Assembly (NCBI RefSeq): GCF_000801105.2
Contig: NW_026615379.1
Coordinates: 1-64,000 of the forward strand
DNA: 64,000 bases
Origin: Raphanus sativus
Taxonomy: Eukaryota; Streptophyta; Magnoliopsida; Brassicales; Brassicaceae
Direction: 5' to 3'
Shown here: positions 3,535 through 57,563 of the stretch, one piece after another
Position numbering within the stretch: position 1 is the first letter of the stretch
How the letters are laid out: every line of letters starts with the position of its first letter
Notes under the pieces: model-generated
Told to the model about the DNA's origin: nothing
The model's input: the letters and a program-made list of their open reading frames with translations, nothing else
The model's database searches: none
Made by a program: the position numbers and the translations under genes

Positions 3535-3902
3535 TGTGACAACCCGTCCCGTGGAACACCTGCCCATGGACCCAAGCTCACAGCGCTGCAGCGCACCGAC
3601 CCCAACCCCTCCATTATGAGATCTCACTATCTCCATAATTAGGTTGTTGGTGAGACTCGAACCCAGGTCCTCACCTTTAACAGCATTCCCACAGGACAAG
3701 CTGTCACCAATTGATCTGCAGGTCAATTGGTGACAGCTTGTCCTGTGGGAATGCTGTTAAAGGGTGAGGACCTGGGTTCGAGTCTCACAACAACCTAATT
3801 ATGGAGATAGTAAGATCTCATAATGGAGGGGTTGGGGTCGGTGCGCTGCAGCGCTGTGAGCTTGGGTCCATGGGCAGGTGTTCCACGGGACGGGTTGTCA
3901 CA
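3535..3902. mobile_element. Short palindromic element, copy 1 (two inverted 172-bp LTR-like arms)
   Basis: Arm 1 (3535-3706) and arm 2 (3731-3902) are both 172 bp and reverse complements with only a few differences. A 24-bp spacer (3707-3730), itself nearly palindromic around a CTGCAG site, separates them. Each arm starts TGTGACAACCC and ends GCTGTCA, the TG...CA ends of an LTR. The inner third of each arm, read outward from the centre, looks tRNA-like: a possible D stem CAGC/GCTG, then GGGTTCGAGTCTCAC, which fits a T arm and pol III B box. No 5-bp duplication is visible (flanks GGGG and AAAAA). A diverged second copy lies at 10679-11017. Confidence 0.85.
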
Positions 3903-3920
3903 AAAAAATTTGACTTTTAT

Positions 3921-10678: not shown

Positions 10679-11017
10679 TGTAACAACCCATCCTGCGGAA
10701 CCACCCGTCCGTAGACCCAAGTTCACAGGGCTGCAGCGCACCGACCCCAACCCCTCCATTATGAGATCTCACTATCTCCATAATTAGGTTTTTGGTGAGA
10801 CTCGAACCCAGGTCCTCACCCTTTAACAGCATTCCCACATGACAAGTTGTCACCAATTGACAATGCTGTTAAAGGGTGAGGACCTAGGTTCGAGTCTCAC
10901 CAACAACCTAATTATGGAGATAGTGAGATCTCATAATGGAGGGGTTGGGGTCGGTTCGCTGCAGCGCTGTGAGCCTGGGGTCCATGGGCAGGTGGTTCCA
11001 TGGGACGGGCTGTTACA
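10679..11017. mobile_element. Short palindromic element, copy 2, with 5-bp target duplication
   Basis: Arm 1 (10679-10852) starts TGTAACAACCC and ends GTTGTCA. Arm 2 (10861-11017) is its inverted partner, lacking about 20 bases at the inner end, and finishes GGGCTGTTACA. The host word ATGCC flanks both sides (10674-10678, 11018-11022), a perfect 5-bp duplication splitting the gag frame of copy A. The arms differ from each other at many more positions than in copy 1, so this insertion is older or diverged separately. The tRNA-like GGTTCGAGTCTCACC box is present in both arms. Confidence 0.9.
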
Positions 11018-11022
11018 ATGCC

Positions 11023-11262
11023 CATGGTTTTCTATGATCAATACCAACCTAATGAGGTCCCAAAGACCATGGAGAAGAAGAAGTTTGTCAGCCAAGACAC
11101 ATTGGCCAGACCCAAAGAAAAATCAGACAAACCAATTTTTCAAGAAAAGGCCAAGGTAAGTCCTATAGTTGATAAATTTGTTTATAAATCATCTCCCACT
11201 GGTATGAGTCACTTGTCTTCGTCAAAGGATGTTAAGACAGGTTCTGAGGCCCAGAGAGACAC
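11023..11262 (+). pseudogene. TRG copy A gag, middle part
   Basis: Continues the copy A gag after the palindrome. It includes ARPKEKSDKPIFQEKAKVSP and the first H-L-S repeat, TGMSHLSSSKDVKTGSE, which matches TGISHLSLSKNVKTGPE in copy B. The frame is cut by the Athila-type palindrome, whose target duplication AATAT begins at 11263. Confidence 0.75.
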
Positions 11263-11267
11263 AATAT

Positions 11268-12713
11268 TGATGTCTTGCATATTTTCATTGTTTTAACTTC
11301 TCTTTTTATGCAATTCTATCATATAGATTAGGATCTATATGTCTTTAGGATCCATATTGCATACATATGTCCCTATCAGGTGTTGGAGCATCCTATGAGG
11401 TGATTTGAAGTGTTTGAGAGCTTAAAATCCAAAAAGAGATGAAGAATGGTGTTTGGCCAAGCAAGACAAGTCAAGAACCATTTGGACCGGGGAGACTTGG
11501 ACCGGAGTGGGCAACTCGGGCGCATCCTGAACAAGAGAAGAAGGAACCTGGACCGGGCAGGCCTGGACTGGAGTCAGCACCTCGGGCGCAAAGGAGATGA
11601 GGAGCGATCTGGAAGCCAGGACCGGGATAATGCAACCGGGCGATTTAGGACCGGGAAGAGAGGGACCGGGATCATGTACCCGGGCAGAAGAGACCATTGG
11701 GCGAGGAAGAAGCGCCCGGTTTGGGCAGGACCGGGTTGGTTCGACCAATTTCGACCATGGGTCGTTTTTATCACTTATTAATGTCCAAATTAGCCTTCTC
11801 TAAGGGCCATTTTAGTCTTTTGTCTTATGTCTTTTCCTTTCCCTAAACCTAAGTATAAATACTTTGTAATTTCCCAATTTGGGACTTATCTTAGAATTTT
11901 CTTAAGAACAAAACCTCTTGTTGATTTTCTAGATTTCTTATATATCTCAATCTCATCTTGATCTTGTGTTCTTGTGCAGATTCTAGTTCTCATCTTCCTA
12001 TCCCTACATGATTAAGCTAAGATCCATCATGGGTTTAAGAGTAATCATGGTGATTAGTGAGTAATCCACTTTTGGATTCATGGGTTAGGAATATTAAGTG
12101 TGATTAGGCTAGATCTAGGATGTATTAGTGTAGATCTATCTATTTCCTTGCTAGTAGAGTGATTTTATTGCTTCTTTTGAGTTGGCCACTCAAAGGTTGA
12201 GCTTTAGGCATTTCCCACCCACAAGGTGTTTGATGAAATGTCTGAACCAACTCTCCTAAGCTTTTAACACTCTTTACCAAAGAGATTTGTTGTTAAAGTT
12301 GTTAAGATGGCTAGTAAACTTGATATTAATGATTGCTTGCATTTCATTCAACCTAAGACATTAGATGCTTGAGATTTGCTAGCAAATGAGCATTCATCTA
12401 GATATAGAGCTTGTTTATAATAGATTCTAGGCCTAAGGTTTGCTAGATAGGTTGAAAGTGATCATCTTTAGTTCAAAACCTAATCACCCAAGGTCATATT
12501 CTCTAATCCATGAGTTCTCCCATCTCATAATCAAGAAAGTTTCTACCTTTATTGCTTTTTAGTATTATCTTAGATTAAAATCATTCTCAATATGTTGGTA
12601 GCACTTAGATTAAGCATAGTCTTGTATTCCCTTTGCTTGATAATTACTTAGAACTGGATTGACATCATTTATATTACAGCATTTGATAGGACCCTTGCAA
12701 AAGGCCTTCATCA
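11268..12713 (+). mobile_element. Athila-type LTR, plus-oriented arm of the palindrome
   Basis: 1446 bp, TGATGTC...TTCATCA. It contains a GC-rich block (about 11470-11750) with many CCGGG and ACCGGG words, and a TATA box (TATAAAT, 11854-11860) followed by an AT-rich R/U5-like stretch. Relative to the other arm it keeps about 90 more bases around 11690-11810. Open frames in the GC-rich block on both strands are composition effects. Confidence 0.88.
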
Positions 12714-12724
12714 AATTGATGATA

Positions 12725-12746
12725 GGACCCCGGCAACGGCGCCAAT
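12725..12746 (-). promoter_or_regulatory. Athila-type primer binding site in the palindrome spacer
   Basis: On the minus strand the spacer reads TGGCGCCGTTGCCGGGGTCC just after AAT that follows the LTR end TTCATCA. This is the primer site usual for Athila elements (commonly assigned to tRNA-Asp). It belongs to the minus-oriented LTR. On the other side it breaks off after about ten more bases, where the inverted LTR begins. Confidence 0.85.
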
Positions 12747-12747
12747 T

Positions 12748-14101
12748 TGATGAAGGCCTTTTGAAAGGGTCCTATCAAATGCTGTAATATAAATGATGTC
12801 AATCCAGTTCTAAGTAATTATCAAGAAAAGGGAATACAAGACTATGCTTAATCTAAGTGCTACCAACATATTGAGAGTGATTTTAATCTAAGATAATACT
12901 AAAAAGCAATGAAGGTAGAAACATTCTTGATTATGAGATGGGAGAACTCATGGATTAGGGAATATGATCTTGGGTGATTAGGTTTTGAACTAAAGATGAT
13001 CACTTTCAACCTATCTAGCAAACCTTAGGCCTAGAATCTATTATAAACAAGCTCTATATCTAGATGAATGCTCATTTGCTAGCAAATCTTAAGCATCTAA
13101 TGTCTTAGGTTGAATGAAATGCAAGCAATCATTAATATCAAGTCTACTAGCCATCTGAACACCTTTAACAACAAATATCCTTGGTAAAGAGTGTTAAAAG
13201 CTTAGGAGAGTTGGTTCAGACATTTCATCAAACACTTTGTGGGTGGGAAATGCCTAAAGCTCAACCTTTGAGTGGCCAACTCAAAAGAAGCATTAAAAGT
13301 ACTCTACTAGCAAGGAAATATATAGATCTACACTAATACATCCTCGATCTAGCCTAATCACCCTTAATCTCCCTAACCCATGAATCCAAAAGTGGATTAC
13401 TCACTAATCACCATGATTACTCTTAAACCATGATGGATCTTAGCTTAATCATGTAGGGATAGAAAGATGAGAACTAGAATCTACACAAGAACACAAGATC
13501 AAGATGAGATTGAGATTCAAAGGAAATCTAGAAAATCACCAAGAGGTTTTGTTCTTAAGAAAATTCTAAGATAAGCCCCAAATTGGGAGATTACCAAGTA
13601 TTTATACTTAGGTTTAGGGAAAGGAAAAGACATAAGTCTCTTCCGCCCGGGTACATGATCCCGGGTACATGATGGTCTCTTCCGCCCGGGTACATGATCC
13701 CGGTCACTCTCTTCCTGGTCCTAAATCGCCCGGTTGCATTATCCCGGTCCTGGTTTCCCGGTCGCTGCTCATCTCCTTTGCGCCCGAGGTGCTGACTCCG
13801 GTCCAGGCCTGCCCGGTCCAGGTTCCTTCTTCTCTTGTTCAGGATGCGCCCGAGTTGCCCACTCCGGTCCAAGTCTCCCCGGTCCAAATGGTTCTTGACT
13901 TGTCTTGCTTGGCCAAACACCATTCTTCATCTCTTTTGGATTTTTAAGCTCTCAAATACTTCAAATCACCTCATAGGATGCTCGAACACCTGATAGGGAC
14001 ATATGTATGCAATATGGATCCTAAAGACATATAAATCCTAATCGATATGATAGAATTGCATAAAAAGAGAAGTTAAAACAATGAAAATATGCAAGACATC
14101 A
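12748..14101 (-). mobile_element. Athila-type LTR, minus-oriented arm of the palindrome
   Basis: 1354 bp, the reverse complement of 11268-12713. It lacks part of the GC-rich/AT transition and instead has a short tandem duplication of a word containing CCCGGGTACATGAT (13646-13695). Scattered single-base differences between the arms show that they have diverged since insertion or derive from two different LTRs. Confidence 0.88.
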
Positions 14102-14106
14102 AATAT

Positions 14107-15034
14107 CCACATCCTTGTTGGACTCAAAAAATTTCCAAGATTTATGTCCAAGGAGTAAAGAGATTTCAAATCCAAAGAAAGAAGAGGCACCAAGCCAAGG
14201 TAAGTCTTCTAACTTCAAGGATTTAGAAGAGCCGATATGTTATAAATGTCATAAAAGAGGACACTTTGCTGTAGTTTGTCCAAATAAGAAAGCATTGAAA
14301 GAAACATCACTAGAAGAGAAAACAGATTTATCTATAAAAAGTTATAGTTTTATTCAATTTGATTTATTGGTTCAAAATTCTTGGGTGATGCACTTGTCTT
14401 TGTCAAAAGGTGTTGTAACAAGAATTCATAGGAGAAGAACCACCAGGCGTGACTCTTGTGATGGACCAGAAGATAGTTCAAGACACAAAGCAGTCCATGA
14501 TGCTTAATGAAGCAAAAACAGTATTAGAAGTATCACACCAAGGTAAGTGTTTAACACCACCTTTAGATACTATTACTGATGTGTGTGTTCTTGGAACAGG
14601 GGGTAGAAGTGAAAGTTATATGCTTACTGATGTTCCAAGTAAGGAGCCAGACCATAAGGTAAGTCATGAACCATCTCACATGTGAAAACCAAAATCTGAA
14701 CATTTGATTGTTCTAATTCCAAAACCTATGGTAAGCTTCATTTTTGATCAGCATGTTCTTAATATTTCCATGAAGAGATTAATGCACTTGTCTTGTCCAA
14801 GAGAATGTGAAATATTTTCAGGAACCAAGGGGGAGTGCACTGCCCAAAAAGAAGAGACACAATCCATGATGTTACAAGATGCTGAATTAATGCCATTAGA
14901 AGTCAGCCAAAGAAAGGGAAGTGTTTTTAATTTAAAATCGTCCCTATTACTTGATTATTCAGATATGACTCACTTTTCTTTGCCAGAGAGTTTTGATCCA
15001 GGAATAAGACAAGAAGATGGTCATACCAGCCTAG
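14107..15034 (+). pseudogene. TRG copy A gag, zinc-knuckle and H-L-S repeat region
   Basis: Pieces in shifting frames (14115-14507, 14449-14685, 14704-15042). The first holds a CCHC zinc knuckle, CYKCHKRGHFAVVC (C-x2-C-x4-H-x4-C), which in gag proteins binds RNA. Later pieces hold repeats such as MHLSLSKGV, MHLSCPRECEI and MTHFSLPESFDPGI. Frameshifts and lost segments relative to copy B make it a pseudogene. It stops where copy B inserted; the frame resumes at 24878. Confidence 0.8.
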
Positions 15035-19689: not shown

Positions 19690-22545
19690 TCATATGATCG
19701 GCTTTGGTTCAGGCCGCTCCTTCATTGGGCTTGAATCTCCTTCAAAAGTCGGGTACTCGCAGATGGACTGGCTGGGGAACCTCCGGTTTGTAAAATTCAT
19801 AACTTCTTCCTCCCTGAAGCTTTTCTTGTAATTCCAAGCCTCAGTGAATCCGTCATGAGGTGGCCTTCTAGAAAAATTGGATTCATGACAAAAGACCTTC
19901 TGGTTGTTGAGATATTCGCCTGGGACTGGACCTCTGTCGCTGGTACCTCCAAAGTGGCCGGTTTGGGCAGGTTGGTTGACCTCTGGTTCAACCATTGGTT
20001 TGATGACCGCATCATTCCCTCCCCCTTGTGAAGTTTTTGACCTCAAAACTGGATAACCTGATACACCACAATAGAGCAAGTCAGGTTTCATTCTCTTTTG
20101 GGAGTTTAGAACCTTACCTTGATACAATTTTGGTTTGGTAATGGTTTGTGCATCTGGTGGCTCTTCTTTAAAGAAATGTGAAATGATCACGCCTCTGGTA
20201 TGGACATTGTCATTTCTTCTCTTCTGGAGATGATGGTTCTCCACACTTTTGGAGTTGATGGTTGTGACCATCTTTGGGACTGATTCTCCAAGCAATGAAA
20301 GAGTATCCGGTGGGATATCTTTAAAGCTTTCTTCTTTGCAGCCTGAAAAATTCTCAACATTCTGGACAAAGACCAAATGAATTATATTTAATACTGGAGA
20401 TGTATTTACAGAATGTGTTGTGGTCGAATTTACCATAGGTGCATCAGCATGATGAAGAATTAAATTCTTCTTTGGACAGCATTGGATTGATGGCTGCTTT
20501 TCTTGCAACTTTTTATCTAGGCTGGTATGACCATCTTCTTGTCTTATTCCTGGATCAAAACTCTCTGGCAAAGACAAGTGAGTCATATCTGAATAATCAA
20601 GTTTAATAGATGTTTTAAGATCAGAGAAACTTCCCTTGCTGAATTTGAATGGTACTAGTTCAGCATCACTTTTATGGACAGCATCTATTGAACACATGGT
20701 TAAGGCTTCTTCTTGCAAGACTACATCACAAATTGGATTGTCTTTTTCTTTGCTTATACCTGGGTCAAAACATCTTGGCAAAGACAAGTGTATTATACCA
20801 AAGTAAAGGAATTTATAAACTGATGAACACAAAGAACAAAGTACCTTACTTTCAGCTGTGGCAGCAAGAAATTTTATTTCTTTGTTTGGCTTGCTCTCAC
20901 CTTGGTCTCCTGTACCTATTTCACTTTCCCTTGGACAAGACAAGTGCATTAATCTTATCATGGAAATAATAATAGCTTTCTGATCCATAGTGAAATTTAC
21001 CTCAGGTTTTGGCACTTGAACAATTCTTTGTTCAGATTTTGGTTTCCACTTGTGGTGTGGATTTTGATTGAGCTCATGATCTGGCTCGGCCCTTGGCACT
21101 TCACTAACCATAGAGCTCTCATCTGGTATCCCTGTACCAAGAATATAAAAATTTAAACCAGTATCTAAAGGTGTTGTTAAACACTTACCTTGGTTTGATA
21201 CTTTGATTACTGGTTTTCCTTCCTTAAGCAACAAATCATTTCTTCCAGCCTCACTTATGGCTTCCTCCTCTTTAGCAATGCCATGCTGGTAAACTGGGTC
21301 TTCTCTTTTAAGTTCTTGCTCCTTAATTCCTGATACAATACCCTTTGACAAAGACAAGTGCATTATACAAGAATTTGGAACCAACAAATCAGATTGAATA
21401 AAACTATCACTTTTTATAGATACATCTGTCTTCTTTTCTAGTGATGTTTCTTTCAAAGCTTTCTTATTTGGACAAACTACAGCAAAGTGTCCTCTTTTAT
21501 GACATTTATAACATATCTGATCTTTCAGAATTTTAAAATCAGAAGACTTACCTTGGCTTGATGTGTCCTCCTCTTTGAGGTCTAAAATCTCCTTGTTCCT
21601 TGGAAATAATTCTTTGTGAACTTTGGATTCAAACAAGGATGTGGAGTTCGGATCTTGCTGGACCTCAGGACCTGTCTTAACATTCTTTGACAAAGACAAG
21701 TGACTTATACCAGTGGAAGAAGATTCATAAATCAAATTATCAAGTATAGGACTTACCTTAGCCTTTACTTGCAAAGTTTCTAGCTATGGTTTTTCTTTGG
21801 TTCTGATCAAAGTGTTTTGGCCGACACTTCTACTCTCCATGGCCTTTGGGATGTCACTTTTCTGGTCTAGGCATTGGACAATGGTGTGCCCCTGGCTTGG
21901 TTGCAAGTTGGCTTGTTGAGAACAGCCTCTCTTACTCTCTTGTGCAACAACTTTTCTAGCTTCTTTGGAACCATGAGTTGGATACCTCCTTGGATAAAGT
22001 TCCTTAATTTCAGAACTTGTAAACTCTGGTGCAAACTCATGTCTCATGGCTTCCTTAAGAGCTCTCCACGTTTTGATGGTTGGCTCTTTGTAAAACCTCC
22101 TATCATCTTCTTCTTGTACCCACCATTTGAAGGCTTCTTCTCTAAGTAGATCTATGGCATAAACTAGCCTCTCTTCCCTCATGATGTTGTTGTAATGAAA
22201 CCATTCATCAAGGTTTCTCTCCCATCTAAGATAACCTATTTTTCCTGAAAATTTATAGAGTTCAATTTTATTAGCAAAAGAGTTATATTCAAAAACCGAG
22301 AATTAACAACATGATGGTTGTGGGTTTTAGAAATTGGAGTTTGATTGATCCTTGAAGGATCTGGTGGCTTGGGCTCGACATAAACAGCCTCTGGTGCATC
22401 TCCAAATCTTCTTTCTCCTGGCTGTGGACGTTGGCCTTGTGCCTTTCTTCTTTTCCTCAACTGAGCAATCTGTTCAACCTCTTGCAAAGCTGTCAAATGC
22501 TGGCTCTTCTTGGCCATCTGACTTTGTCCGTGTGTTTCTCCTACC
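19690..22545 (-). pseudogene. TRG gag protein, copy B (best preserved copy)
   Basis: From ATG at 22545: N-terminal Gln-rich helix, then GERRFGDAPEAVYVEPKPPD. After a frame break near 22236 comes the gag domain (22182-21784: AFKWWVQEEDDRRFYKEP, ELYPRRYPTHGSKEARK). After one in-frame TAG (21781-21783) the same frame runs 694 codons (21774-19690). This holds a CCHC knuckle (CYKCHKRGHFAVVC) and a series of H-L-S repeats (SHLSLSKNVKTG, MHLSLSKGIVSG, MHLSCPRESEIG, IHLSLPRCFDPG, THLSLPESFDPG). It runs through the polypurine tract (SQGGGNDA) and 108 codons into the 3' LTR. No protease or RT motif. In the family gag packages RNA; the H-L-S region is of unknown role. Confidence 0.85.
20015..20030 (-). 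promoter_or_regulatory. Polypurine tract of TRG copy B
   Basis: Minus strand CACAAGGGGGAGGGAA lies immediately before the 3' LTR start TGATGCGG. The same tract precedes the 3' LTRs of copy A (35630-35646) and copy C (38353-38368). It is translated in frame as part of gag (QGGGND). Confidence 0.9.
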
Positions 22546-39869: not shown

Positions 39870-40810
39870 TTAAAAGTTAGAAGAATTACCTTGGGTTGAT
39901 GCCTCTTCTTTCTTTTGGTTTGGAATCTCCATTTTTCTTGGAAATAAATCATGGACAACTCTTGATGCCAACAAGGGTGTGGGGGTCATTTCTTTCTGGA
40001 CCTCAAGACCTGTCTTAATATCCTTGGACAAAGACAAGTGACTCATACCAGTGGGAGATGATATATAAACCAATTTATCAAGTATAGGACTTACCATAGC
40101 CTTTGCTTGAAGTACTGGTTTGTTTAGCTCTTCTTTGGGTCTGCTCAAGGTGTCTTAGCTGACGTTTTTACTCACCTCCATGACCTTTAGGATGTCACTT
40201 TTCTGGCCTAAGAAATGGACAATGACGTGCCCCTGGTTTGGCTGAAAGTTGGTTTGTTGAGGCAAGCTTCTTTGACCCTCTTTGTGGACAGCGTCTCTTG
40301 CTTCTTCGGAACCATGAGTTGGATACCTCCTTGGGTACTGCTCCTTGATCTGAGATCTTGTATAACCTGGTGCAAACTCATACCTCATGGCTTTCTTAAG
40401 TGCTCCCCACGTTTTGATAGTTGGCTCCTTGTAAAACCATCTATCATCTACTTCTTGAACCCACCATTTAAAGTCATCTCCTTTTAGATGATCAATGGCA
40501 TAAGCTAGCCTTTCTTCCTTCAAGATGTTGTTGTAGTGAAACCATTCATCAAGGTTCCTCTCCCATCTAAGATAACCTCTTTTTCCTGAAAATTTAAAGA
40601 GTTCAACTTTATTAGCAAAAGAGTTATAATCAAAATGAGAATTAACAACATTAAGTTTGGGGGTTTTAGAATTTGGATTTTTATTGATCCTTGAAGCCTT
40701 GTGCCTTTCTTCTTTTCCTCAACTGAGCAATCTGTTCAACCTCTTGCAAAGCTGTCAAATGTTGGTTCTGTTTGGCCATCTGATATTGGTTGTGTGCTTC
40801 TCCTACCATG
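39870..40810 (-). pseudogene. TRG copy C gag, N-terminal part
   Basis: From ATG near 40810 (Gln-rich helix with NQHLTALQEVEQIAQL). A deletion follows that removes the GERRFGDAPEA block. Then the gag domain (40523-40155: DFKWWVQEVDDRWFYKEP, EQYPRRYPTHGSEEARD) and a segment 40148-39870 with TGMSHLSLSKDIKTGLE. Several frame breaks. Confidence 0.78.
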
Positions 40811-41999: not shown

Positions 42000-43738
42000 C
42001 TACAGAATATTTTGAAAAACTTGTTTGTAGACAACATTCAATGTTTTTGTCTCCGCCTTCCTTTCTTTACCTGTTATTAGGATTTTTAATCCAGATCTCG
42101 ACTTAACTCTTGAAAGTGCAACGTAGAGCTGACCATGAGAGAACACTGGCCTAGGCAAAAACAAACCGACACTTTCTAGTGTTTGACCTTGACTTTTGTT
42201 GATGGTCATCGCGAAAGCCAGTGTAACGGGAAACTGTCTTCGACGCATTCTGAAGGGAAACTTTGTGTCAGGTGGACTGACATACATTCTAGGAATCAAG
42301 ACTTCGTCTCCAGCAGTACTGTTTCCAGTTATAATTCTACCTTCTATGACATGGGGGAGCAACTGAGTAACAATTAGCCTAGTACCATTGCATAAGCCAT
42401 CTACCAAATCCAAGTTACGGAGACACATAATAGGAGCACCAACCTTCAGCTTCAAATTATGTCTAGGCATTCCTGCCACTCTAACACTGTTCAAAAACTC
42501 TGTTGGATAGGTAACATTTTCTTCTACATCAACATCGGATGGGATTATATTGTCAGAGCTAAGGTAAACCTTGTATTCACCTGAAAGCACGTGTAAATCC
42601 TTTACTCTAGAATAATGTAAAAAGTTAGTCGAACATAAGAGTAAACAGAATCAAATGTTACCTGGCAACTGCGAAAGCATGTAATCATTTATTTTATCAA
42701 CTTCATCATTTGTGGGTGTGAGAATGGCTCGATGTCTATACAAATCCTTATCTTCTGAGGTTTGAAAAGCTTGTCCATAAACCTCCTTTGCAATAGTCTG
42801 AATAGGATCTTCTCCAATATTTTTGATCAACAGATCAGAAGGGATGTCAATGTCAACTTGACCGTCGTTTGGCAAATTTATGTTTCCATCTCCAACATCC
42901 AAAATCCATTTTGAGAAGGATTGAAGGTCTTTTGCTGCATCATCAGTAAGACCAGCGAGCAATCTCATGTTTTTTGTTAGCTTCAAAACTTTGCAGTGCT
43001 CCCAAAGATATGACGAATTCAGAGCTTGCAAAACAGTCTCTGCTCTACCACCTCCAGGTATAACCGGTAAAATCTGTCTGAAATCTCCACCGAAAACAAC
43101 TACTTTACCTCCAAAAGGTTTGTCTTCAGAAGATCTTATAATATCACGCATAGAACGATCCAAAGTCTCGAAACAGTGTCTGCTCATCATAGGCGCCTCA
43201 TCCCATACAATGAGCTTTGCTGCTTTAACTAATTCTGCACGATCTGATCCTGGCTCCAGTTTCTTGCAAGTAGTAAACTCGTCGGCATCTATCGGAATAC
43301 CAAACCTGGAATGTGCGGTTCTACCTCCTTCCAACAATAATGCAGCAATTCCACTGGATGCGGTATTTAGAACAATCATACGTCTAGATCGGATTGCTGA
43401 TGAGAGTGCTCTATATACGAAGGTTTTACATGTGCCTCCATAACCATAAAGAAAGAACACTCCACCGCTATCATTTAAAACTGCATCCAAAATCTCGTTG
43501 TAAACCCCTCTTTGCTCATCTGTTATCATCGCCATAAGTCTTTCATTTTCCTTTAGCTGATCTTCCACAACATACTTAAGCTCATCATCTATAAGGCGAT
43601 TGCCGTTGTAACAACCAAAATCATCTGGCTTTGGCATTAGGGGCCATTTCTGGAGGCTACGACCATTGCTAAGCAAATGATTTTGGATCTCGGTTAGAGC
43701 AATGTTTTTGATCTGATCTATGGTCAAGTTCAACTCTG
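42000..43738 (-). pseudogene. RepHel: PIF1-type helicase domain (two exons)
   Basis: Superfamily 1B DNA helicase part of the Helitron transposase. First exon 43738-42649: Walker A YGYGGTCKTF (the usual G before K is Cys here), Walker B IVWDEAPM, and GGDFRQILPVIPGGGR. A GT-AG intron (about 42648-42592) leads to the last exon 42591-42000: [36 protein letters not shown] and [13 protein letters not shown], standard PIF1 motifs. This part is otherwise open and ends normally. In the element it would unwind DNA during rolling-circle transposition. Confidence 0.9.
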
Positions 43739-43791
43739 CAAATTTGAAAAATTAACTAAATAAGAGAGACCTGATTTAAAACATATTTCGT

Positions 43792-48691: not shown

Positions 48692-48870
48692 GCGTCAGAC
48701 TTTTCAGATATTGCTTGTGTCTTTTGTAAGAACAGGACTCTAGCTATAGAATTTTCCGAATGCAGTTAGAAAAAAGGCTTCAACAAACTTATATAGTTTG
48801 ACAGAAAATGAAGACTATAGAATTCAGAAGACGACATATTTAATCAATATAATAAAGATAGATTGATGAC

Positions 48871-49438
48871 TGTTGGGCCCAAATATGACCCCCTAGCTAG
48901 TGATAGACAATAAGAAATGATAACGGGCCGCGAAAGGCTCATCATGAATTCAATCTTCAAAAACAGCTAAGTCAGATCCGGAGGCTGTGAGCTGGAGATG
49001 TTCATCAGAGAGGTCAAGGAAAAGAGGCAGCTCGTTGACAAGTAAACATGCGCAGGACCCGGTCAAAGAGGTAGCTCGTGGACAAATAAATAGGCGCAGG
49101 ACCCGGTCAAAGGGGAGCTGTTACAAATCCCTCAAATCACGGAGAGGATCTCGGGAACCTGTTGGTAGCAACCGACGGAGCCTGAGGCTATTTAAAGAGG
49201 AAGTCAATCAAGAAAAGGGGATCGGAACCCATTTCACACACAAGCTCTCAATCATTTAATTCTTTCTTTGTAAACGTTATAAACATCTTTGTAAACATAT
49301 TCTTTACCCAAAATCATCAATAAAATCATTCATTCATCTTTTAAGTTCTTACGGGATTCAGCCCACGATTATCTTTCCCTAATCCTTTCCTAAACTATAA
49401 CCTGACCTAAAATCAGGAGGTGAGTTTAATCCCTCACA
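48871..49438 (+). mobile_element. Tat element 5' LTR
   Basis: 568 bp, TGTTGGGCCC...CCCTCACA. It holds a ~46-bp imperfect tandem duplication (AGAGGCAGCTCGTTGACAAG and AGAGGTAGCTCGTGGACAAA, both followed by GCGCAGGACCCGGTCAAAG, 49022-49111). A TATA-like box (CTATTTAAAG) lies at 49188-49197. Confidence 0.93.
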
Positions 49439-51672: not shown

Positions 51673-51777
51673 CAATTACAGATCCAGGAGGGTCGTGAGA
51701 TACAACAGAATATTTGAGGTCCTCCTAAGAACCTCACCGAGCAAGTTAGTATCGACGACTCAAATCCTGAAAAGCAA

Positions 51778-52896
51778 GTGAGTATCGGATCCGAGCTACC
51801 TCTCGAGACTAAGAAGGAGCTCATCGACTTTCTAAAAAGCAACGTCGGAACCTTTGCATGGACCACCAGAGACATGAAGGGTATAAACGCCGACGTCACT
51901 ACGCACAAGCTTAATGTAGACCCCACTTTCAAACCGATCGAACAAAAGCGTCGCAAGCTAGGCCTAGAAAAGGCTCAAGCTGTTAACGACGAGGTTGACC
52001 GACTTATGAAAGCTGGGTCCATTCGTGAGGTACATTACCCAGACTGGCTAGCTAATCCAGTAGTTGTAAAAAAGAAGAACGGGAAATGGAGAATCTGCGT
52101 AGATTTCACCGACCTAAATAAAGCTTATCTCAAAGACAGCTTCCCGTTACCTCACATCGATCGTTTGGTCGAGGCCACTGCTGGCCACCAGCTCCTGTCC
52201 TTCATGGATACCTTTTCAGGGTACAATCAAATCATGATGGATCCTGAGGATCAAGAAAAAACTGCATTCATAACCGAACGAGGAACCTATTGTTACAAAG
52301 TTATGCCATTCGGGTTAAAGAACGCAGGAGCTACCTATCAGAGGCTAGTAAATAAGATGTTTGCTAGACAACTAGGAAAAACCATGGAGGTCTATATTGA
52401 TGATATGCTAGTCAAATCCTCAATTGGAGAAAACCACATTTCCCACCTAAGGGAATGCTTCGATATCCTCAACAAATACGACATGAAGCTCAACCCTGCT
52501 AAGTGCATTTTCGGGGTACCTTCAAGCGAGTTCCTCGGCTACCTCGTAACCGAAAGAGGCATCGAAGCCAACCCGAAACAGAGAGCTACCTTTCTGAAAA
52601 TACCGTCACCTAAGACAACCAGAGAGGTACATAGATTGACTGGACGAATCGCAGCATTAAATCGATTCATATCCAGGTCCACCGATAAGTGCCTCCCATT
52701 CTACAAACTTCTAAAAAATAATAAGAAGTTCTTATGGGACGAGAAGTGCGAGGAAGCCTTCAAGCAATTGAAAGCTTACCTCTCCGAACCTCCCATCTTG
52801 GCCAAACCAAGAATGGGAGAACCACTGTATCTGTACCTCGCTGTGTCAACCGCTGCAGTTAATGGTGTGCTGGTACGAGAAGAGCAAAACGAGTAA
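51778..52896 (+). pseudogene. Tat reverse transcriptase
   Basis: 372 codons. RT motifs: VVVKKKNGKWRICVDFTDLN, DSFPLPHIDRLVE, SFMDTFSGYNQI, TYCYKVMPFGLKNAGATYQR, the catalytic VYIDDMLVKS, LNPAKCIFGV, SSEFLGYLVTERGIE. The thumb and start of RNase H follow (YLYLAVSTAAVNGVLVREE) up to a TAA at 52894. The catalytic Asp residues are intact; the domain looks nearly complete. Confidence 0.93.
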
Positions 52897-56875: not shown

Positions 56876-56995
56876 AAGCAAAGGAAATCTTCAATAACGA
56901 TAACTGTTGCTCGAGATCTCAACAAAAAGATTGATGCTTGGCGGCTAGGTCTAGCTTCCGAGATAAAGAATCTTATCTCGAAAGCTGGGGGCAAC

Positions 56996-57563
56996 TGTTG
57001 GTCCCAAATATGACCCCCTAGCTAGTGATAGACAATAAGAAATGATAACGGGCCGCGAAAGGCTCATCATGAATTCAATCTTCAAAAACAGCTAAGTCAG
57101 ATCCGGAGGCTGTGAGCTGGAGATGTTCATCAGAGAGGTCAAGGAAAAGAGGCAGCTCGTTGACAAGTAAACATGCGCAGGACCCGGTCAAAGAGGTAGC
57201 TCGTGGACAAATAAATAGGCGCAGGACCCGGTCAAAGGGGAGCTGTTACAAATCCCTCAAATCACGGAGAGGATCTCGGGAACCTGTTGGTAGCAACCGA
57301 CGGAGCCTGAGGCTATTTAAAGAGGAAGTCAATCAAGAAAAGGGGATCAGAACCCATTTCACACACAAGCTCTCAATCATTTAATTCTTTCTTTGTAAAC
57401 GTTATAAACATCTTTGTAAACATATTCTTTACCCAAAATCATCAATAAAATCATTCATTCATCTTTTAAGTTCTTACGGGATTCAGCCCACGATTATCTT
57501 TCCCTAATCCTTTCCTAAACTATAACCTGACCTAAAATCAGGAGGTGAGTTTAATCCCTCACA
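56996..57563 (+). mobile_element. Tat element 3' LTR
   Basis: 568 bp, preceded by a purine-rich AAAGCTGGGGGCAAC. Differs from the 5' LTR at two positions. Confidence 0.93.

Follow-up and report, generated by a model that had tools for sequence, protein, structure and literature searches.

The window, by which we mean the whole 64,000-nucleotide stretch of Raphanus sativus DNA analysed here, contains no N and carries at positions 11268-14101 two LTRs arranged tail to tail, the first on the plus and the second on the minus strand, with a 34-bp spacer between them and the pentamer AATAT directly outside each end (Table 1). Whereas a normal insertion or a solo LTR exposes one U3 and one U5 end, both outer ends of this palindrome are the U3 start TGATGTCTTGC, and the two AATAT copies stand in direct orientation, as in the short target duplications made by integrase. 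Arm-to-arm alignment gave three inverted blocks (687 nt and 431 nt at 97% identity, 212 nt at 95%) with one indel of ~90 bp, confirming a structure far beyond chance and bearing out the earlier note, which had described just this order of plus LTR, 34-bp spacer with primer site, minus LTR, two outer U3 ends and duplicated AATAT. The arms still agree for 5 nt past the LTR ends (AATTG/CAATT), so that the unpaired centre amounts to 24 nt (12719-12742) rather than 34. Although the palindrome has no internal region, it displays a 5-bp target-site duplication (TSD), TG...CA LTR ends and a tRNA-Asp-type primer site, which we take to be marks of the Athila group of Ty3/Gypsy elements, and we use the name Athila for its LTR family on that assumption.

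Table 1 Features of the LTR palindrome, its host element, the paralogous empty sites and the second tail-to-tail locus.
Feature	Position	Strand	Basis or remark
Interrupted retroelement holding the insertion	11053..14424	+	flanking parts 11053-11259 and 14106-14424 match paralogues that lack the insertion
Target-site duplication, left copy (AATAT)	11263..11267	.	read in sequence; empty-site comparison
LTR plus arm, 1446 bp, TGATG...CATCA, U3 end outside	11268..12713	+	arm alignment, family relatives
AATTG common to both arms: AAT (LTR-to-primer-site gap) and TG (complement of the tRNA terminal CA)	12714..12718	+	
Spacer between LTR ends, 34 bp	12714-12747		
Filler TCCTATCAT (minus-strand reading)	12719..12727	-	U5-antisense match
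Primer site: 17 nt copied from the tRNA-Asp(gtc) 3' end	12728..12744	-	primer-site search and tRNA match
Minus-arm AATTG (CAATT on the plus strand), 2-nt overlap with the primer copy	12743..12747	-	
LTR minus arm, 1354 bp, U3 end outside	12748..14101	-	~90 bp lost in the CCGGG-rich part
Target-site duplication, right copy (AATAT)	14102..14106	.	read in sequence; empty-site comparison
Paralogous empty site	39874..40095	-	84% over 222 bp, 0 gaps; own bases differ at the duplicated site
Second paralogous empty site	21533..21759	-	80% over 228 columns; both gap columns lie away from the insertion point
Second locus, 9605 bp (L073, L071, L106, L074)	C6:26264320-26273924		TSD-flanked tail-to-tail insertion, two outer U3 ends

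The retroelement that holds the insertion may be gag-like: visual inspection of paralogous frames showed a CCHC-like motif. Two of these frames returned no family in a Pfam scan. Two paralogues within the window align across the insertion point with one AATAT kept. Neither has a gap at that point, so that the palindrome went in as a single unit by way of two U3 ends; the fit of the empty sites is the mark of an integrase acting jointly on both outer ends. The integration of a single palindromic unit with two U3 ends and a 5-bp duplication, as proposed in the earlier note, is thus upheld by both empty sites, and also by a second locus with the same arrangement of ends (see below). A mirror-image duplication of chromosomal DNA would have mirrored the flank; the flank is unmirrored, which speaks against such an origin.

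Least probable of all the readings weighed here is that a normal provirus or solo LTR was rearranged by inversion and deletion after its insertion. Plant retroelements are often rearranged, but this path would require the exact re-creation of a U3 end at the duplication, and the second locus shows the same arrangement. Given the exact outer U3 starts beside the direct 5-bp repeat and flanks that fit the empty sites without loss, post-insertion inversion was rejected. An artefact of assembly or library preparation likewise appears very improbable: the contig that holds the window is only 82 kb long, one of 6413 in the assembly, and palindromes are hard to assemble, but the arms differ by ~3.6% in addition to the 90-bp indel, the unmirrored flanks fit two empty sites, and the second locus sits on a 54-Mb sequence with a TSD of its own.

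Arm differences were polarised by alignment with 26 LTR slices from relatives. Eighteen of the 67 differences fall in a misaligned block beside the deletion and two at the edge of the centre; among the 47 others, the derived state was assigned to the plus arm in 21 cases and to the minus arm in 20, both states occurred in relatives in five, and one was unclear. The nearly equal numbers of private differences argue that the arms were alike at birth, and the five positions with both states in relatives are compatible with two slightly different templates. The arm-to-arm distance (K2P = 0.0365 over 1320 sites) corresponds to an age of ~2.6 million years at an assumed rate of 7e-9 per site and year, and conversion between the arms could mask a greater age. 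Among the best 40 of 1256 candidates scored in the first genome search, there was no other near-identical whole LTR, and the other LTR relatives were 75-85% identical over long stretches, with a maximum of 87.7% across 259 bp. At the U5 end, the nearest relatives are L036 (95.6% over 159 nt) and L037 (93.5% over 123 nt). LTR matches were also present at 55 loci outside the window; at none of these did they occur in both orientations within one stretch. The genome-search counts reported here refer to one genome and are lower bounds, since only part of the candidates was scored.

Read on the minus strand, the palindrome centre is CATCAAAT-TGGCGCCGTTGCCGGGG-TCCTATCAT-CAATTTGATG. It contains the sole match in the window to a tRNA-Asp-type primer site (16 nt, three mismatches at most; 12729-12744, minus strand), for which the expectation is 0.07 per window and which appeared at least once in 7 of 100 shuffles. 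Compared with the tRNA-Asp(gtc) called by ARAGORN at a test site of the same genome (L072), the exact match at the centre extends over 17 nt. In normal family members (41 leaders from 40 loci), the sequence is ...ATCA-AAT-TGGCGCCGTTGCC, after which most have AA(A/G)TTCTAAGTTGAT or something close to it. Across 48 LTR-primer-site hits in the loci examined, 33 match the tRNA over 13 nt, as against 17 nt at the U5-U5 junction; a 17-nt match was found in eight (six window repeats, L039 and L043), an 18-nt match in four (including one bacterial record, and one locus twice), and matches of 19, 28 and 75 nt once each. At the place where the window's match runs past 13 nt, L036 and L037 carry AAAT. 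GGGG follows the primer core in 5 of the 41 leaders, so that the GGGG of the palindrome need not derive from the tRNA in this event.

Two primer-site loci are recorded here as observations in their own right. In L011 (G000:C1321, 1501-3537), an LTR with primer site and leader is trailed at ~100 bp by another U5 part, which has the same orientation and a primer site and leader of its own. L004 (LFMX01000071.1, Candidatus Burkholderia humilis), which was counted among the 48 hits, has at ~3667 an LTR-like end with a tRNA-Asp-type primer site and is perhaps plant contamination. A scan for CATCA plus primer site returned no viral contigs and four contigs in the prokaryote set, none of which was used as evidence.

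Of the filler together with the preceding GGG, 11 nt (GGGTCCTATCA) are identical to the antisense of the element's own U5 in both arms (12684-12694; minus arm, 12767-12777), and an 11-nt run to the filler on either strand occurred in 6 of 2000 Markov-1 sequences modelled on the plus arm. Over a 13-nt stretch of the junction, the U5 antisense agrees at 11 positions, as compared with 10, ungapped, for the leader GGGGTTCTATTGT of L043, a more distant relative, and nine for the leader of L039. The leader shared by L036 and L037, AAATTCTAAGTTGATTG, does not fit, and the longest run common to this stretch and the leaders is 3-6 nt (41 leaders, 40 relatives), with TCCTA present in five of the 41. To judge from these matches, the spacer reads best as a 17-nt copy of the primer tRNA-Asp plus antisense of the own U5. 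A leader origin of the filler appears less likely. The view of the earlier note that the junction is the element's own leader is weakened accordingly: it retains the fit of L043 and loses ground through the misfit of L036 and L037 and through leader runs of at most 6 nt, against 11 nt for the U5 antisense. A genome search for the junction, primer site included, returned the window itself as its only match (control, 0). When the 3' end of the strong-stop DNA was folded in silico as DNA, the U5 hairpin obtained was modest (z -1.74; equalled or surpassed in 11 of 200 shuffles) and forms no part of the argument.

We consider it improbable that the palindrome is a product of autointegration, in which the CA end of U5 would have attacked the leader of the same element at a point just beyond the primer site, and this reading was rejected. 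Such events are documented for LTR retroelements in the available text of PMC9694575, the junction adjoins the primer site, and the L043 leader fits at 10 of 13 positions. However, in both arms the CA is followed by AATTG, the continuation seen in ordinary LTR-primer-site DNA, and an end joined by integrase would have been cut back to CA; the direct joining of CA to leader, which the earlier note had proposed, is therefore unsupported. In addition, the leaders of L036 and L037 misfit, and none of the 41 leaders shares a run of more than 6 nt.

Plant tRNA genes do not encode CCA. A 26-nt tRNA-Asp pattern that includes the complement of CCA was found at ten genome sites (control, 0), all ten of them after LTR-type ends. 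The exact copies at L054, L071 and L107-L114 are, in this order, 28, 75, 75, 32, 37, 58, 75, 47, 47 and 75 nt long. By eye or alignment, the bases before the copy resemble the palindrome's LTR family at L054, L071, L107 and L111-L114; at L108-L110, only a ATCAAATT/ATCAAGTTT end was observed in this place. L107 and L114 seem to represent a single site that was duplicated, and there is near identity between L112 and L113 over the stretch compared. At L112 and L113 the normal leader resumes after the tRNA end, and at L110 the tRNA end is followed by coding sequence for reverse-transcriptase RNase H (PF17917, E 1.5e-09). These copies suggest repeated rescue, through misplaced strand transfer, of strands that had copied the primer tRNA in large part or entirely. 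According to the available text of PMC13191261, plus-strand strong-stop DNA normally halts after 18 nt of the tRNA owing to modifications, and synthesis reaches the tRNA 5' end when the primer tRNA is unmodified. For Ty3, the accessible portion of PMC5371799 states that the primer tRNA sequence is not inherited and that dead-end plus-strand strong-stop DNA builds up in virus-like particles. We put forward, as a possibility rather than a probability, that in this genome dead-end plus-strand strong-stop DNAs, some of them spanning the whole primer tRNA, are repeatedly joined tail to tail, are integrated by integrase at two U3 ends and form a recurrent class of Ty3/Gypsy by-products giving LTR-only or near-palindromic insertions, with incomplete tRNA modification as one cause.

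Across the genome, a pattern describing a pair of U5 ends that point towards one another (YATCAAATTN{0,30}AATTTGATR) matched 34 sites, the window included, against 24 in the control, and comparison of the 33 sites outside the window with the family LTR set left one that was LTR-like (L067). A further tail-to-tail search for the GAAAAGTCCT subfamily gave 0 sites; searches of this kind are blind to junctions with trimmed ends or longer fillers.

The surroundings of L067 make up the second tail-to-tail locus, on C6 (Table 1). Its left half consists of LTR_B(+), AAT with a perfect 75-nt copy of tRNA-Asp (the whole mature tRNA including the complement of CCA), a ~940-bp stretch ending, by eye, in a polypurine tract, and LTR_A(+). 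The junction TATCAAATTG|AATTTGATA then leads into the right half, which comprises LTR_B(-), a polypurine tract, an internal part (read except for 2.1 kb) and another LTR_B(-). Both outer ends are the U3 of LTR_B, and GACTC stands on both sides. Neither half has, by eye, its own duplication at the junction. At 5775 bp, the right half compares with 5777 bp for a standard B element (C4:18286489-18292265), which served as a control and has one U5 and one U3 end outside, with CCTTC on both sides. The three LTR_B copies of the second locus differ among themselves by 0, 1 and 1 substitutions, the central copy being without 11 nt, and were therefore probably made in one replication cycle, recently. 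LTR_A belongs to another subfamily, as would be expected if two different RNAs had been co-packaged. The right half of the locus is a full-length element and its partner a shortened one; neither is an LTR-only piece, so that the palindrome of the window could likewise be a larger dimer minus its insides.

Whatever the length of its partners, the window palindrome very probably stems from a tail-to-tail cDNA dimer that integrated through two U3 ends, an origin common to the strong-stop and longer-cDNA readings. For the partners, we lean towards the LTR-only version, i.e. strong-stop DNAs joined tail to tail and then integrated. The dimer would have been joined U5 to U5 during or just after reverse transcription, most likely from plus-strand strong-stop DNAs, which start at the polypurine tract, are LTR-long and bear the primer-tRNA copy at their end. 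One strand would have ended in this tRNA copy (...GCCGGGG), and its GGG end may have annealed to a CCC within U5, either on the same strand or on the sister strand, to be extended by 8 nt (TCCTATCA) and then released. The released strand would have re-primed near the end of the second LTR strand (...CATCAAATTG) and copied it back to the U3 start, and fill-in would have yielded a duplex with two U3 ends, the only free ends of the dimer and hence those used by integrase. A self-folded single strand would leave one open end, and the two-strand version requires two partners. The sequence itself establishes the single-unit integration, the two U3 ends, the 17-nt tRNA match and the U5-like filler; we infer the order of these steps, the polymerase involved (reverse transcriptase or a host end-joining polymerase) and the LTR-only state of the partners at birth. 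Two template jumps are needed, one filler base is left unexplained, and the close scores of the L043 leader and the U5 antisense (10/13 vs 11/13) mean that the strand end could have comprised a few bases of leader rather than the tRNA copy by itself. Template switching near the minus-strand start, the other origin proposed in the earlier note, is the kind of event favoured here.

Alternatively, two longer or full-length linear cDNAs may have been joined at U5, by end joining or template switching, and integrated through two U3 ends, each half later shrinking to a solo LTR as its own LTRs recombined. This we hold to be the less likely version. In its favour, the second locus represents a dimer of this sort that retains most of its parts and shows that longer dimers do occur; one partner end at both loci reads ...ATCAAATTG, as in a finished cDNA end with two tRNA-derived bases; and solo-LTR formation is common in plants. 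However, two extra recombinations would be needed, one per half, with the centre left untouched, and the 17-nt primer-site copy is kept at the other partner end, whereas a finished cDNA end should have lost it.

Defective palindromic retroviral DNA, with inverted structures arising in reverse transcription, was reportedly described by Olsen and Swanstrom in 1985. As for LTR elements, Ty3-type plus-strand strong-stop DNA (PMC5371799, available text) resembles the partners proposed for the palindrome in being an LTR-long strand that ends in a tRNA copy, but is extrachromosomal and unused, whereas in the window ends of this type seem to have been fused tail to tail and inserted into the chromosome. 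The complex insertions attributed to template switching in Triticeae and other grasses (PMC1950507, as far as its text is available) are similarly single, TSD-flanked insertions built from two templates before integration. Unlike the palindrome, they are composite elements in which the outer LTRs are similar and a third LTR lies inside, and neither "inverted" nor any word with "palindrom" occurs in the text of that paper. Retroviral 2-LTR circles and palindromic LTR-LTR junctions also result from joined LTR ends of cDNA; in the portion of PMC1180852 at hand, these are the two ends of one linear DNA and the palindrome measures ~20 nt, whereas in the window a U5 meets the U5 of a second copy in an integrated linear dimer. 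Autointegration circles, as presented in the available text of PMC9694575, are comparable as another aberrant outcome for LTR cDNA, with junctions that lie within the element, but they join an LTR to internal sequence, which the palindrome lacks, leader bases being at best unproven. Among the literature matches listed (titles and abstract openings, with subscription journals mostly outside), there was no integrated tail-to-tail LTR palindrome, and we regard the palindrome as a new form of aberrant reverse transcription product.

As a natural genomic sequence, the palindrome indicates that the integrase of an LTR element can apparently use two U3 ends and that U5-joined cDNA dimers can complete integration. 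Copies of the tRNA primer, which are regarded as transient or as dead ends, also reach the chromosomes. Both these read-through copies and the tail-to-tail junctions are readable scars that may help to study plus-strand transfer errors and primer-tRNA modification across plant genomes, and LTR palindromes could be natural sources of hairpin RNA.

Other repeats in the window include two related fold-back elements with TGT...ACA ends (10679-11017 and 3535-3903). The former has ATGCC directly on both sides; the latter lies downstream of a Ty3-type integrase frame (534-1532), is preceded by the polypurine-like AAAGAAAGGGGG and may be a self-palindromic LTR. A PIF1-like helicase frame (PF05970) at 42651-43751 is, we presume, perhaps part of a Helitron. 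Finally, two direct repeats of 300 nt (48869-49168 and 56994-57293), 100% alike and 8125 bp apart, are likely the LTRs of a young Ty3-type element (RVT_1 frame, 51718-52896).
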